Source of the DNA: an uncultured bacterium
Lineage (GTDB): Bacteria; Armatimonadota; UBA5829
Direction of reading: 5' to 3'
Length of the DNA: 64,000 nucleotides
NCBI GenBank assembly: GCA_938074205.1
Contig: CALJES010000007.1
Location: forward strand, 1-64,000
Under the pieces are notes generated by a model that had not been told where the DNA came from, ran no database searches, and saw nothing but the letters and a program-made list of their open reading frames with translations. Within the stretch, counting starts at the first letter, position 1. The number at the start of each line of letters is the position of its first letter. Shown piece after piece: positions 36,888-49,708 of the stretch. The position numbers and the translations under genes are program-made.

Positions 36888-38714
36888 TTACTCTCGCAAG
36901 TACTGCAGAGTTTTCTCAAGCCGCGCCTTGCTGTCGACGAGCCCTCCTGGCCTGTTTCTCGCGAGCCACAGTCGCTCATATTCGGCAATTGTATCTTCGA
37001 GCTTGAATGCTATGGCTTTACGTTCGCGGGAGACAGGCTTGCCTGCCCACAAAGCTAGATGCATCTTTCCAACCCGACAACCCAGCTCAACCAGTGTGGC
37101 GTCGCAAGCGAACTCCGCCTTTATGAGCTCTGCATCGGGTCTTGTCATCTTGGCCAAACGCATTCGACGAACTGCACCTTTCACGCAGTCGATGACTGCG
37201 TCCAGCTCTTCGGTACTGACGCCTTCCAGAAGCTGCTGGGGCTTCCATCTGCCTTGAACAAGAAGCCAGAAGGGTATTGTGGAGTTGGGCACACTGTGTA
37301 TTTTCGTGTAGGAGTTCGCCAGTTCGTAGGCGACTTGTCCCATAACTCCTGCCGTGTCCTGAAAGGCGAAGAGGTTCAGCGCCTCGAGAAGTCTATCCAC
37401 GTTTGCATTGTCCGCACCAGCATTCCAGGAGCACGCTGCACCTACCATATAGCCCATATAGCTGACTGGCAGAAACTGGTGGTGGCCGTTGTCGCCCCAA
37501 TCGGTGTTCAGAAAACCTGTTGCGCCCGTTTCGAGGCCTTCCTTGGCGGCTCTTATTGGGTTGTGTATCGCATTATAAGCGCGACCCACAAACGAGTTCC
37601 AACTGGATGTGCCCGGACATACCCAGAACTCTATCCCTGCAGCAGCGTGCTTTTCGCAATTTGGTTTGAAAGCATAGTCGGCGCCGTAGCCCCATTCCAG
37701 AGCAACAACGTCCTTTGGCAACTCAGGAATGAGCTCAGGATGTTTCTTGATTATATCGCCCCAGAATAGCATACGCCGCCCGTGCTCAGTAACCAGACGG
37801 TGCAGATTCAAGAGAAAGTCCAAGTAAACCCTGCCGACGCCCAGCTTCTCACACGCTTCCTTGCTTCTACCTTTGCCTAGGTCATGCGTTTCGTCGCAGC
37901 CGACGTTGAAATACTTGCTCGAAAAATGCGGAAGCAGTTGCGAGTATAGGTTGGCTATAAGCTCGATGCTGCGCGGATCCTGCGGGCAGAGGGTGAAAGG
38001 TGCGCTGGGGACTTCAGCGAGATCGCGGTATTCTTTGTGTTTTAGCCACCGTTCCATGTGGCCGAAAGAGTTCTGATTAGGCACGAGTTCGATAAAGCGC
38101 TCTCGGCAGTAGGCGTCCAGTTTGAGCACATCCGAACCCGTGATAGGGCTGGCTTTCCGCCATACTACTTCGTGACCGATATATTCGAAAGTGTGCTCGG
38201 TGTAGAGTTGGAACTGGTTGATCTTCCACTCAGAAAGCATATCGACCAGCTGCATCAGTGTCTCCAGCGTGGGCACTTTGTCTCTGCTGACGTCCAGCAT
38301 CACGCCGCGCTCGGGAAAGTCGGGCCAATCTTCGATGGAAAGCATAGGCAACTCTCTTCCGTGGCGCTTTATCAACTGGATCAGAGTGCAAACACCGTAG
38401 TAAATGCCTGCCGGAGCAGCAGCGGTTATGCGTATAAGGTTCGGATTGATAACGAGGGTATAGCCCTCAGGTCCATTCGGTGCTGATGAATCGCACACGA
38501 GTAGAATTGGGTTAGAGGTCGTTGCCGCCACTGGACTTGCTGTAGGCCGCCAATCGCCTCCAAGCGCGGATGCAAGTTTGTTGGCGCCCAAAAGCAGCAT
38601 TTCGGGAACCTCAGACTGGATAACAATATACCCTTTTCGAGGCAATTTCAGGGTTTGCTGGCGCACGTCGATTTTCTTGGGTGTTGGTACGAGGAGCAAA
38701 TCCTTTGTAGTCAT
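36888..38714 (-). CDS. Glycoside hydrolase family 20 (beta-N-acetylhexosaminidase-like)
   Basis: The 608-residue protein has an N-terminal GH20b-like domain (about 1-125), then the TIM-barrel starting at IEDWPDFPERGVMLDVSRD. Catalytic Asp274-Glu275 sit in VGCDETHDLG, as expected for substrate-assisted catalysis. GHMERWLKH and WGYGADY line the pocket. It seems closest to the GcnA-like branch. No signal peptide is seen with the start at 38714, which has AGGGGGA 10 bases upstream; the frame is open to 38870. Substrates are probably N-acetylglucosaminides. Confidence 0.85.
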   Translation of the reverse strand: MTTKDLLLVPTPKKIDVRQQTLKLPRKGYIVIQSEVPEMLLLGANKLASALGGDWRPTASPVAATTSNPILLVCDSSAPNGPEGYTLVINPNLIRITAAAPAGIYYGVCTLIQLIKRHGRELPMLSIEDWPDFPERGVMLDVSRDKVPTLETLMQLVDMLSEWKINQFQLYTEHTFEYIGHEVVWRKASPITGSDVLKLDAYCRERFIELVPNQNSFGHMERWLKHKEYRDLAEVPSAPFTLCPQDPRSIELIANLYSQLLPHFSSKYFNVGCDETHDLGKGRSKEACEKLGVGRVYLDFLLNLHRLVTEHGRRMLFWGDIIKKHPELIPELPKDVVALEWGYGADYAFKPNCEKHAAAGIEFWVCPGTSSWNSFVGRAYNAIHNPIRAAKEGLETGATGFLNTDWGDNGHHQFLPVSYMGYMVGAACSWNAGADNANVDRLLEALNLFAFQDTAGVMGQVAYELANSYTKIHSVPNSTIPFWLLVQGRWKPQQLLEGVSTEELDAVIDCVKGAVRRMRLAKMTRPDAELIKAEFACDATLVELGCRVGKMHLALWAGKPVSRERKAIAFKLEDTIAEYERLWLARNRPGGLVDSKARLEKTLQYLRE

Positions 38715-38892
38715 CTTAAGCGATCCCCCTCTGGCTGCGAAGTTCAAGTTTACGTTTTCTGATTCACTGGTAATGTTGGCAATCCCTTCCATTGTGAATG
38801 ACAATCGCGCCAGGCAATTACCTCTGTGAAGGATACGTCGCGTTTCGGGCGGCATAGGCTGGTGCCACAAGGGGCCGAAAACTCTGCATACA

Positions 38893-38981
38893 AATAAAAG
38901 CCCTTCCTCGTCCTGGTGCGAGGGAAGGGCTAAGGAAAGGAGGGAGAACGATATGTAGATAGACTGGCCTTGCTGCTGGCA
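38893..38981 (-). ncRNA. Candidate small RNA B with anti-Shine-Dalgarno-like core
   Basis: The predicted transcript is about 89 nt. Promoter: TTGACA (39010-39015), 16-base spacer, TATCAT (38988-38993), preceded by TGG as an extended -10. The core CCCTCCTTTCC (38934-38944, minus strand) shares CCTCCTTTC with the 3' end of 16S rRNA. A 12-bp hairpin (38899-38910 with 38919-38931, one bulge) and TTTATTT end it. No open frame of useful size is present. It is homologous to the element at 39079-39155 over the promoter and core, while the terminator stems differ in sequence. Confidence 0.6.
38899..38931 (-). terminator. Terminator of candidate small RNA B
   Basis: The 12-bp stem has an 8-base loop and is followed on the minus strand by TTTATTT. 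It lies upstream of the GH20 start and no coding gene ends here. Confidence 0.75.
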
Positions 38982-38987
38982 TTACAT

Positions 38988-39015
38988 ATGATACCACAAT
39001 GGTCTAATTTGTCAA
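38988..39015 (-). promoter_or_regulatory. Promoter of candidate small RNA B
   Basis: TTGACA and TATCAT with 16-base spacing, plus an extended -10 TGG, on the minus strand. Confidence 0.65.
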
Positions 39016-39078
39016 TACGGAAAAATTACCTGTAATTCAGGCGAGATATGTTGCGACGGACTAATTCTTCTTGCTAAG

Positions 39079-39108
39079 AAAAAAGCAGCCCCGGCTTACA
39101 ACCGGGGC
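39079..39108 (-). terminator. Terminator of candidate small RNA A
   Basis: The 7-bp stem of only G/C pairs has a 7-base loop and is followed by TGCTTTTTTC on the minus strand. It could also end read-through from the nuclease gene at 39276. Confidence 0.8.
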
Positions 39109-39155
39109 CAACAAAGAAAAGGAGGGGCGAGATACGATGTGAGAAATGTGTTGGT
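39079..39155 (-). ncRNA. Candidate small RNA A with anti-Shine-Dalgarno-like core
   Basis: The predicted transcript is about 77 nt. Promoter: TTGACA (39186-39191), then AATAAT (39162-39167) at 18-base spacing. The shared block ACATCGTATCTC leads into CCCCTCCTTTTC (39116-39127, minus strand). A 7-bp GC stem (39088-39094 with 39102-39108) and six T (39079-39084) form a terminator. It matches element B at the -35, TGTGGTA, ACAT..CGT..TCTC and CCTCCTTT, at similar distances. Targets cannot be named from the window. Confidence 0.6.
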
Positions 39156-39161
39156 TACTGG

Positions 39162-39191
39162 ATTATTACCACATCTGCGACGGTTTGTCAA
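39162..39191 (-). promoter_or_regulatory. Promoter of candidate small RNA A
   Basis: TTGACA and AATAAT at 18-base spacing on the minus strand. The -35 and the TGTGGTA preceding the -10 are conserved in copy B. Confidence 0.6.
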
Positions 39192-39275: not shown

Positions 39276-40337
39276 TTAATCCATTGGGATGGGGTCTTTC
39301 AAAGTGATTACGAGTCCCTCTGGCGGCTCACCGGCAGCCTGGAAGAGGGTATGTATTGAGCGTATATGATCTCCGGAGGAACAGAACGCTTCAATAAACA
39401 ACTCGCCCTGAGGGGTATCAATCCGATATGGTATGGCCATTTTAGTACCCGTACCGTGAACTGGTTCTCGAGCTACGAACCACCTTTTGGAACGCGGATC
39501 CCAGGGGATGGGCAGCTCAGGCAGACGGTTGTGCTGGGCGAACCACTCGACTATTGACCCGGCCATTTCCTTCCAACTAGATACTTCACGGATGGTTTGA
39601 TCGGGGAACTGGACATGGGTCGGTTTGTTGAATGCAAGCTTATCTCGCAGCTCGTGTAGCTCAGCTAGCGTATAAACGTTGTTCGGTGGTGGTGGTGGCG
39701 GTGGTGGTGGGGTCTTCAAGCCGAAGTAATTGACTATGTCATCGGGCTGGACGTCGGTGATTCCTTCTTTTCGCAGAAACTCAGTGAGCATTGTGATGGC
39801 CTTGCTGCTCGGATTCTTTAGTTGTTCATCCAAGACATCCTTTATCTGCTTCTGGACCACGTATCGCTCGAGTTGGCCGGAAGTAACCGAAGGTTTGGAA
39901 AGCGCAAAGAGGAAGTCTATTAAATCAGGGCTCTCCAGCTCTACGCTCACCACCAGGCGATCTTCGGCAGGGCGCTCTCTAAGATAGTTATCGTATAAAT
40001 GCCACTGTCTGCCGTTAGACAGCACGACCCACCTCTTGCCCTGCGCGTTTGCGTAGTTTACAGCCTGAACAGCGTGGGATTTATCGAGGGTAACTTTCCA
40101 GTCCTTCGCCTCGAGATACCAAGTGTAATCAGTTTGCGGGAGTATCGTATAATCAGGCACTCCGGCCGATATGGCTCCTTGCAGAAGTATCTCGTGCTTT
40201 TCGTAGCCCGCCGCTTCTAGTAGCGAGTTAATCACCCAGTAGCAAGTGCAAGATTCGTTTGGAGGCGGCTTGGGAAGCTTTCGCACGCGTTCAATTTCGC
40301 TGTTCAGCCGTTTTCGCAATTCACTATCATTCGCCAT
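39276..40337 (-). CDS. Orphan nuclease-like protein with HsdR N-terminal (PD-(D/E)xK) domain
   Basis: In this 353-residue protein, residues about 30-135 match the type I restriction HsdR N-terminal nuclease fold. The candidate catalytic triad is Asp62 (PDYTI), Glu76 and Lys78 (YLEAKDWK). Next come a helical region (about 150-205) and nine consecutive Pro (210-218), encoded by a CCA/CCG-type trinucleotide run at about 39684-39712. A C-terminal domain (about 222-353) follows that I do not recognise. No helicase, methylase or specificity subunit is adjacent, so it is not a standard restriction system. A strong promoter is upstream. Confidence 0.75.
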   Translation of the reverse strand: MANDSELRKRLNSEIERVRKLPKPPPNESCTCYWVINSLLEAAGYEKHEILLQGAISAGVPDYTILPQTDYTWYLEAKDWKVTLDKSHAVQAVNYANAQGKRWVVLSNGRQWHLYDNYLRERPAEDRLVVSVELESPDLIDFLFALSKPSVTSGQLERYVVQKQIKDVLDEQLKNPSSKAITMLTEFLRKEGITDVQPDDIVNYFGLKTPPPPPPPPPNNVYTLAELHELRDKLAFNKPTHVQFPDQTIREVSSWKEMAGSIVEWFAQHNRLPELPIPWDPRSKRWFVAREPVHGTGTKMAIPYRIDTPQGELFIEAFCSSGDHIRSIHTLFQAAGEPPEGLVITLKDPIPMD

Positions 40338-48988: not shown

Positions 48989-49588
48989 CTAAGAACTCCT
49001 TAACCTACTTTCCACGTCATCTCGACCGCTGTCAAGCAATCCTGCCAGTCGGTCACGCAAGTTGGCAGTGGCGCGCGATAGATGCGCCTTCACTGCTCCG
49101 GTCGAGCATCCCATTGCTTGGGCTATTTCATTGATAGACAGTAGGTTATAATGGCGAAGCATGAAAACTATCCTTTGACGCTCAGGCAACGCTTGGACTG
49201 CGCGCTTGATCGTTCGGGCTAGCTCACTCTGGTGAGCCCGCGTTTCCGGATCATCGGTGTCAGGACCCTGCAGCCTCTCCCAATCTTCATCCGACAGCTC
49301 AACCTTTCTATTTTTCTCACGACGCCTGCGGTCTATGCAATGGTTGAGACAAACTCTATATAACCACGCGTTCAAATTGTCCGACGGCGGAAACTTGGGC
49401 AGCGCCTTGTGAAGCTTTATGAACACCTCTTGAACGGCGTCCTTGGCCTCTTCGCGGTCTTGGAGTACTCCCCAAGCGAGCGCGTAGACCTTGTTCATAT
49501 GAGACGCCATCAGGCGGTCGAAAGCTTCCCCTTCACCTTCCTGGAAACGCTTTATAAGGACCTCATCTTCGGGTATCGCAGCCGCCAT
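48989..49588 (-). CDS. ECF RNA polymerase sigma factor
   Basis: The 199-residue protein has region 2 (about 20-85, with DAVQEVFIKLHKAL and NLNAWLYRVCLNHCIDRRRR) and region 4 (about 130-185, with LPERQRIVFMLRHYNLLSINEIAQAMGCSTGAVKAHLSRA). Regions 1 and 3 are absent, as in all ECF factors. It heads a three-gene run with the zinc anti-sigma factor and the secreted stalk protein, which may be a regulon member. The ATG at 49588 is preferred over a TTG at 49639. Confidence 0.93.
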   Translation of the reverse strand: MAAAIPEDEVLIKRFQEGEGEAFDRLMASHMNKVYALAWGVLQDREEAKDAVQEVFIKLHKALPKFPPSDNLNAWLYRVCLNHCIDRRRREKNRKVELSDEDWERLQGPDTDDPETRAHQSELARTIKRAVQALPERQRIVFMLRHYNLLSINEIAQAMGCSTGAVKAHLSRATANLRDRLAGLLDSGRDDVESRLRSS

Positions 49589-49708
49589 AAGGGGCTTATC
49601 TCCCTTTCGGTCCTCCGTACTTGTACAAACGGAGAACAACCGTATTTAGTTTACCACCTGGAAGAAAAAACAAGTCAAAAATGGTTTGCCCTTATCAGGA
49701 GCTCACCT

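Follow-up and report, generated by a model that had tools for sequence, protein, structure and literature searches.

Twin predicted small RNA genes with CU-rich anti-Shine-Dalgarno cores in an uncultured Armatimonadota bacterium, and related designs across its class

Two tandem genes on the minus strand of the window (the whole analysed stretch of DNA, 64,000 nucleotides of contig CALJES010000007.1 from an uncultured member of the Armatimonadota) very probably encode small RNAs, designated here A and B. This assignment, which was reached by comparison of sequences, is made because in a sister genome (G002) the bodies of both RNAs are near-identical, their terminator stems have drifted apart, and the reading frame that runs through B is interrupted by indels. 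A and B are probably trans-acting small RNAs that would pair, with the assistance of Hfq, with Shine-Dalgarno (SD) regions of mRNAs, and that would constitute the sigma-70 members of a class-wide set of CU-rich anti-SD RNAs. The features observed in silico comprise promoters, terminators, the pattern of conservation, the lack of a conserved frame, the multiplicity of the units, SD usage and the presence of Hfq.

Architecture of the twin units

The pair sits between the gene at 39276-40337 and a GH20-family gene (Table 1), as two full transcription units spanning window positions 39191-38893, with their promoter starts 176 bases apart. This agrees with the sequence-only reading of this DNA, which had described two tandem minus-strand copies about 175 bases apart. 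Both units follow a common plan, namely TTGACA, a spacer of 16-17 bases ending in TGTGG, an AT-rich -10 box, a short body, a pyrimidine tract, a GC-rich hairpin and a T-run; the promoter elements, core and terminator that had been ascribed to each copy were thus all seen. The pyrimidine tract with CCCTCCTTT closes the transcribed body in A as well as in B. The units also have in common a block that reads ACATCGTATCTC in A and ACATATCGTTCTC in B, and their alignment is good only in the promoter boxes, this ACAT-TCTC block and the core. The window contains two instances of the arrangement TTGACA-N40-70-CCCTCCTTT, and 100 dinucleotide shuffles contain none; in the window, CCTCCTTT alone is unremarkable (4 found versus 2.3 expected).

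In the predicted fold the cores of both RNAs are mostly unpaired. The core of A is complementary in sequence to the SD-like AAAAGGAGGGG, and the resemblance of B to the 3' end of 16S rRNA that had been claimed for it is real, the canonical 16S tail GGATCACCTCCTTTCT being encoded at G000:C12:74163 in the window genome (G000; 3.02 Mb in 19 contigs). The earlier statement that no reading frame of any length exists was incorrect: a frame of 59 codons from GTG, or 54 from ATG, encloses B, and one of 32 codons encloses A.

Table 1. Features of the twin-unit locus in the window, and CU-tract loci in the host genome (the six loci are A, B and the last four rows)
Feature	Position	Strand	Remarks
Promoter of RNA A	39162..39191	-	TTGACA, 17 nt, TAATAAT, upstream TGTGG (extended -10); consensus scan 11/12
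TTGACA of unit A	39191-39186	-	
Predicted RNA A, ~76 nt	39079..39155	-	5' end placed from the -10 box; body kept in G002; cross-match with model R2
Pyrimidine core of A, CTCGCCCCTCCTTTTCT	39115..39131	-	Identical in G002; mostly unpaired in fold
Intrinsic terminator of A	39076..39110	-	11-pair hairpin (39110-39086) and T-run; stem sequence differs in G002, hairpin kept
Promoter of RNA B	38988..39015	-	TTGACA, 16 nt, TATCAT, upstream TGTGG
TTGACA of unit B	39015-39010	-	
Predicted RNA B, ~88 nt	38893..38981	-	5' end predicted; body kept in G002 with indels; cross-match with model R2
Pyrimidine core of B, TTCTCCCTCCTTTCC	38934..38948	-	CCTCCTTTC within the core common to the 16S 3' end
Intrinsic terminator of B	38891..38930	-	Hairpin and T-run; stem diverged in G002
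Downstream gene, GH20-family hexosaminidase-like protein	36888..38714	-	Pfam GH20 domains
Upstream gene	39276-40337	-	Without Pfam match; same strand as the GH20 gene
CU-tract locus	C2:4305		ECF-like promoter GGAAC-N17-CGTA; beside deoA
CU-tract locus	C3:131256		ECF-like promoter
CU-tract locus	C19:23235		Sigma-70-like promoter
CU-tract locus	C19:25580		Sigma-70-like promoter

Conservation in a sister genome

Absence from sister genomes had been named as an outcome that would speak against the pair; it was looked for in G002, where both copies are present at the same place, upstream of a GH20 orthologue (84% identical) that adjoins them. The other flank is taken there by a different gene, the 39276-40337 gene not being beside the RNAs. 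Between the two genomes the promoter hexamers and RNA bodies of A and B are largely identical, and the spacers and terminator stems have diverged with the stems still folding, which bears out the proposal that the fold of these unrelated stems is kept and not their bases. Conservation outside the cores includes AACCAACACATTTCTCACA in A and GCCAGCA-GCAAGGCCAGTCT in B. Single-base and 6-base indels distinguish B in G002, and therefore the frame through B is not a conserved coding sequence. The pair was found in 2 of 15 family genomes and is confined to this genus in the sequence searched, the third genome of the genus being 67% complete.

The near-consensus promoter type of A and B is also seen before a tRNA-like gene in G002. 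Given this occurrence and the sigma-70-like nature of their promoters, a housekeeping role appears more likely than a stress role for the pair. The suggestion that the RNAs act perhaps broadly, under some stress, accordingly sits poorly with this pair; it fits the ECF-driven relatives described below better.

Further units in the host genome and related designs across the class

A survey of 1.24 Mb (41%) of the host genome yielded 77 strong terminator hairpins. A pyrimidine tract with CTCC or CCCTC lies directly upstream in 7 of these 77 records, corresponding to six loci (Table 1), and a purine tract in 1 of 77. All six units (6/6) have conserved counterparts in G002; for the C2 unit, the two genomes have almost the same RNA base for base but different promoter spacers.

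A search with a sequence model of A and B pointed to tandem ECF-driven twins in G004, G008, G014 and G001, which adjoin deoA wherever the neighbourhood was read. A structure model (R2) built from those ten ECF-driven copies, with A and B left out, recovers A at E 0.0003 and B at E 0.0009 over the sequence searched, and has matches in 34 of 291 Armatimonadota genomes, mostly of the same family, order and class. Reading of these matches revealed two further designs, one ECF-driven and one of sigma-54 type. The ECF-driven design, with the core CTTCCCACCCTC, is represented by 33 copies in 18 of the 28 class genomes (reversed control 0), a count from which four chance matches (L146, L156, L158 and G014:C145) are left out, some matches of the pattern scan being fortuitous ones in coding or tRNA sequence. 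Up to five copies occur per genome; the core is invariant, the bases flanking the search pattern are almost so, and a hairpin with T-run is found in 28 of the 32 copies examined, with 25 distinct stem arms. The sigma-54-type design combines a -24/-12 promoter (TGGCAC-N5-TTGCA) with the core CTCCTTCC. Its 14 matches are spread over 7 genomes, each of them a member of the class, and the control matched 3 times in 291 genomes and never inside the class; terminators of this design were read for L118, L122 and L123.

In the deoA-linked family both pairing and covariation of the terminator stem exceed those of shuffles and of slid controls. The core differs between families (CCCTCCTTT, CTTCCCACCCTC, TTTCTCCTTCC) but is fixed inside each, and little beyond a pyrimidine core and a hairpin is common to the designs, which across the class are often tandem twins and which elsewhere stand by unrelated genes, i.e. 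deoA and a pseudopilin-like gene. With sigma-70, ECF and sigma-54 promoter types assigned by consensus only, the same RNA design, preceded by promoters of at least three kinds, appears to recur in most of the sequenced class members.

Certain individual loci are of interest in their own right. G019 has four ECF-driven CU-rich units in one array (L121; G019:C1:2721238-2721961), with near-identical cores and different terminators, and a fifth ECF-driven copy at 1708241. In a genome of the same family as the window genome, G011:C19:1073-1634 contains three tandem units of a sigma-54-type promoter and CTCCTTCC. The window itself contains a gene for an ECF-type sigma factor (48989-49639, minus strand; Pfam Sigma70_r2 and r4_2), whose product is a candidate for regulating the ECF-driven copies at other sites of this genome.

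Potential mechanism and alternative explanations

The host genome has SD sites at 280 of 804 starts versus 49 of 804 internal controls, and it encodes Hfq (G000:C12:400808), as do 24 of the 28 class genomes in all. What we infer for A and B is that they are transcribed, bind Hfq, pair and repress, and which mRNAs they target. They would be transcribed independently as terminator-ended RNAs of roughly 75-90 nt, whose unpaired pyrimidine tract (CCCTCCTTT with its flanks) would pair in trans with purine-rich SD regions of selected mRNAs. Hfq would probably aid this pairing via the 3' U-tail, and the duplex between core and SD would block ribosome binding on the target mRNAs. Hfq-assisted pairing is the leading mechanism because the genome uses SD sites, the complementary cores are mostly unpaired and Hfq is encoded. 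Of the masking of SD sequences proposed earlier, the unpaired anti-SD-like core in an SD-using genome is supported; the pairing itself is plausible, and the target signal no more than suggestive.

A less selective action might be imagined, in which A and B imitate the 16S tail in large numbers, mask SD sites non-specifically and damp overall translation. Their strong near-consensus promoters, the presence of CCTCCTTTC in both B and the 16S 3' end, and the reproduction by a bare 14-nt anti-SD sequence of a predicted preference for exported-protein genes among those with strong SD sites are all in line with such titration, but the bodies beyond the core, which a pure titrator does not need, are conserved too, and an 80-nt RNA would need to rival ribosome numbers, so that we regard it as unlikely. 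The pyrimidine tracts could instead bind and sequester Hfq, S1 or another RNA-binding protein. Sponge RNAs, those of the Csr system among them, are characterised by many similar copies; such copies are present in these genomes, as is Hfq. However, variation of the cores between families together with their fixity within each is more readily explained by base-pairing seeds than by a protein consensus, which renders the sponge explanation very unlikely.

The proximity to GH20 raises the question of whether the units are cis-acting leaders, i.e. attenuators of that downstream gene, at which both of them point and with which they remain linked in the sister genome. Against this, both units are equipped with a promoter of their own and a strong terminator, a leader would not be expected to come as two in series, the GH20 genes of other genera in the family are without the units, and the same design is found beside the unrelated deoA and pseudopilin-like genes; a role as leaders is therefore quite improbable. 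That the loci are small-protein genes translated from the short frames covering B (59 codons) and A (32 codons), or that their similarity is accidental, has hardly any likelihood: the indels in G002 shift the B frame, on which ground the small-protein reading was rejected, and chance is opposed by the conservation in G002 and by the shuffle result.

Predicted targets

As regards the preferred reading, trans-acting and Hfq-assisted pairing with SD regions, duplex predictions favour start regions over the coding interior for A, B, C2, C3 and C19u1; reversed RNAs of the same composition do nearly as well at start regions. In a comparative test on 228 orthologous start pairs, covering about a third of the sister genome, core-kept shuffles were as good on the five best joint targets in 2/60 cases for A, 3/60 for B and 0/60 for C19u1, and in 8/60 for C2 and 30/60 for C3. 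The comparative target signal for A and B may therefore be called suggestive, being modest and confounded by SD strength.

The start of the neighbouring GH20 gene is not a preferred partner, ranking 386 (A) and 140 (B) of 810. GH20 was rejected as a dedicated target in cis or trans, both on this low rank and on the existence of GH20 starts without the RNAs in other genera. Among 810 start regions, that of the 39276-40337 gene ranks second as a predicted partner of RNA B. An enrichment of exported proteins among the top targets of A, B and C2 is equalled by a bare anti-SD 14-mer and is also given by some random CU-rich RNAs with the core, and hence is not specific.

PEP-CTERM sorting signals are present in 4 of 5 recurrent top targets examined, one of them barely above the cut-off. 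PEP-CTERM genes also rank high for several RNAs, with B beating 60/60 and C2 57/60 core-kept shuffles; there are only seven genes of this kind, and the idea was drawn from the same data. Since these genes have very strong SD sites, in fact the strongest (mean score 5.9 versus 3.4), the mRNAs of PEP-CTERM surface proteins may be considered a weak lead rather than a result. In three PEP-CTERM genes (G000:C3:86408-87148, C3:100399-101043 and C2:50497-51132) the ribosome site is an unusually long purine-rich one, such as AGAGGAAAGGAGGAAAAGAAGA ahead of ATG, and PEP-CTERM genes with such sites are partly conserved in the sister genome.

Relationship to known small RNAs

Searches with Rfam 15 returned 0 matches above the gathering score in the whole window, and at relaxed E-values RybB, mmgR and P15 only, far below the cut-off. 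The suhB model (RF00519; clan CL00108, cuckoo/CcsR/mmgR) scored 12.1 bits versus a cut-off of 41, and a sigma-54-type relative reached 23.2 bits with the same model. LhrC was without an Rfam match to the window pair and was absent even from the sub-threshold list. In their own promoter, intrinsic terminator and lack of a conserved frame A and B resemble trans-acting small RNAs, as they do in the conserved, mostly unpaired seed combined with a variable terminator stem, a combination that the ECF-driven family displays too.

The closest parallels are sibling RNAs of other phyla. NmsRA and NmsRB of Neisseria meningitidis are tandem siblings, 70% identical, with predicted anti-SD motifs and antisense action on mRNAs (PMC5362039). 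A and B are likewise tandem, separately transcribed by prediction, located in one intergenic region and endowed with anti-SD motifs, but they share little outside the core, in contrast to the ~70% identity of the NmsR pair, and belong to a different phylum, homology having been compared via Rfam only (PMC5362039). The alpha-r14/NfeR1 and cuckoo RNAs display the anti-SD motif CCUCCUCCC on several hairpins and occur in multiple copies, and CcsR1-4, whose copies are driven by alternative sigma factors, arise by processing of a single transcript that also contains a DUF1127 gene (PMC10746234, PMC10253847). An unpaired anti-SD motif, unrelated stem sequences, multiple copies and, by promoter consensus, alternative sigma factors recur in the present families; however, their core is CCCUCCUUU, it is single-stranded, and each copy has its own promoter (PMC10746234, PMC10253847). 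The CCUCCUCCC motif in hairpin loops is not found in A and B, which have CCCUCCUUU in a single-stranded stretch instead, and no DUF1127 gene was seen beside the RNA units here, unlike CcsR1-4.

LhrC1-5 of Listeria are multicopy CU-rich RNAs that block translation, are induced by cell-envelope stress under LisRK control and bear three redundant CU sites each (PMC4132741). The RNAs described here are also multicopy and CU-rich, and their ECF-driven relatives might be induced by envelope stress; the three CU sites per RNA and the LisRK control set LhrC apart (PMC4132741). The rhizobial AbcR1/AbcR2 are a homologous trans-acting pair that rewires metabolism and is linked to the LysR-type LsrB (PMC8844928). 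They are comparable with A and B, which are probably a trans-acting pair too, and differ in being alphaproteobacterial and LsrB-linked, with no Rfam match to the present RNAs (PMC8844928). By the features tested, namely Rfam score, motif and hairpin placement, A and B appear to fall outside NmsR, cuckoo/CcsR and LhrC.

CU-rich anti-SD sibling RNAs are thus a known kind, for which these families and this phylum are new; no report of small regulatory RNAs of Armatimonadota was found in the literature searched, which excludes most subscription journals. If expressed, the RNAs would form a first post-transcriptional network for Armatimonadota, where Hfq is also present, and would add an apparently independent case to the anti-SD RNAs of Alphaproteobacteria, Neisseria and Listeria. 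Tentatively, and with somewhat less than even confidence, we suggest that the class may run a network of twin CU-rich anti-SD RNAs, in which one design is placed under housekeeping, ECF and sigma-54 control and different signals would converge upon targets of one kind, perhaps mRNAs with long purine-rich sites such as those of PEP-CTERM genes. The set of similar designs under different promoters would then allow one to examine what makes bacteria invent sibling CU-rich RNAs again and again, and which of the two, promoter or seed, determines their roles.

A potential counterpart was also noticed in the Planctomycetota, where a metagenome-assembled genome (JAJRYB010000042.1; L061:6374-6490) carries, behind an ECF-like promoter, a strong hairpin whose loop contains TTCTCCTCCTTT and a terminator whose loop contains CCCTCC (fold z -4.5), making this locus a candidate for a cuckoo-like anti-SD RNA in that phylum.
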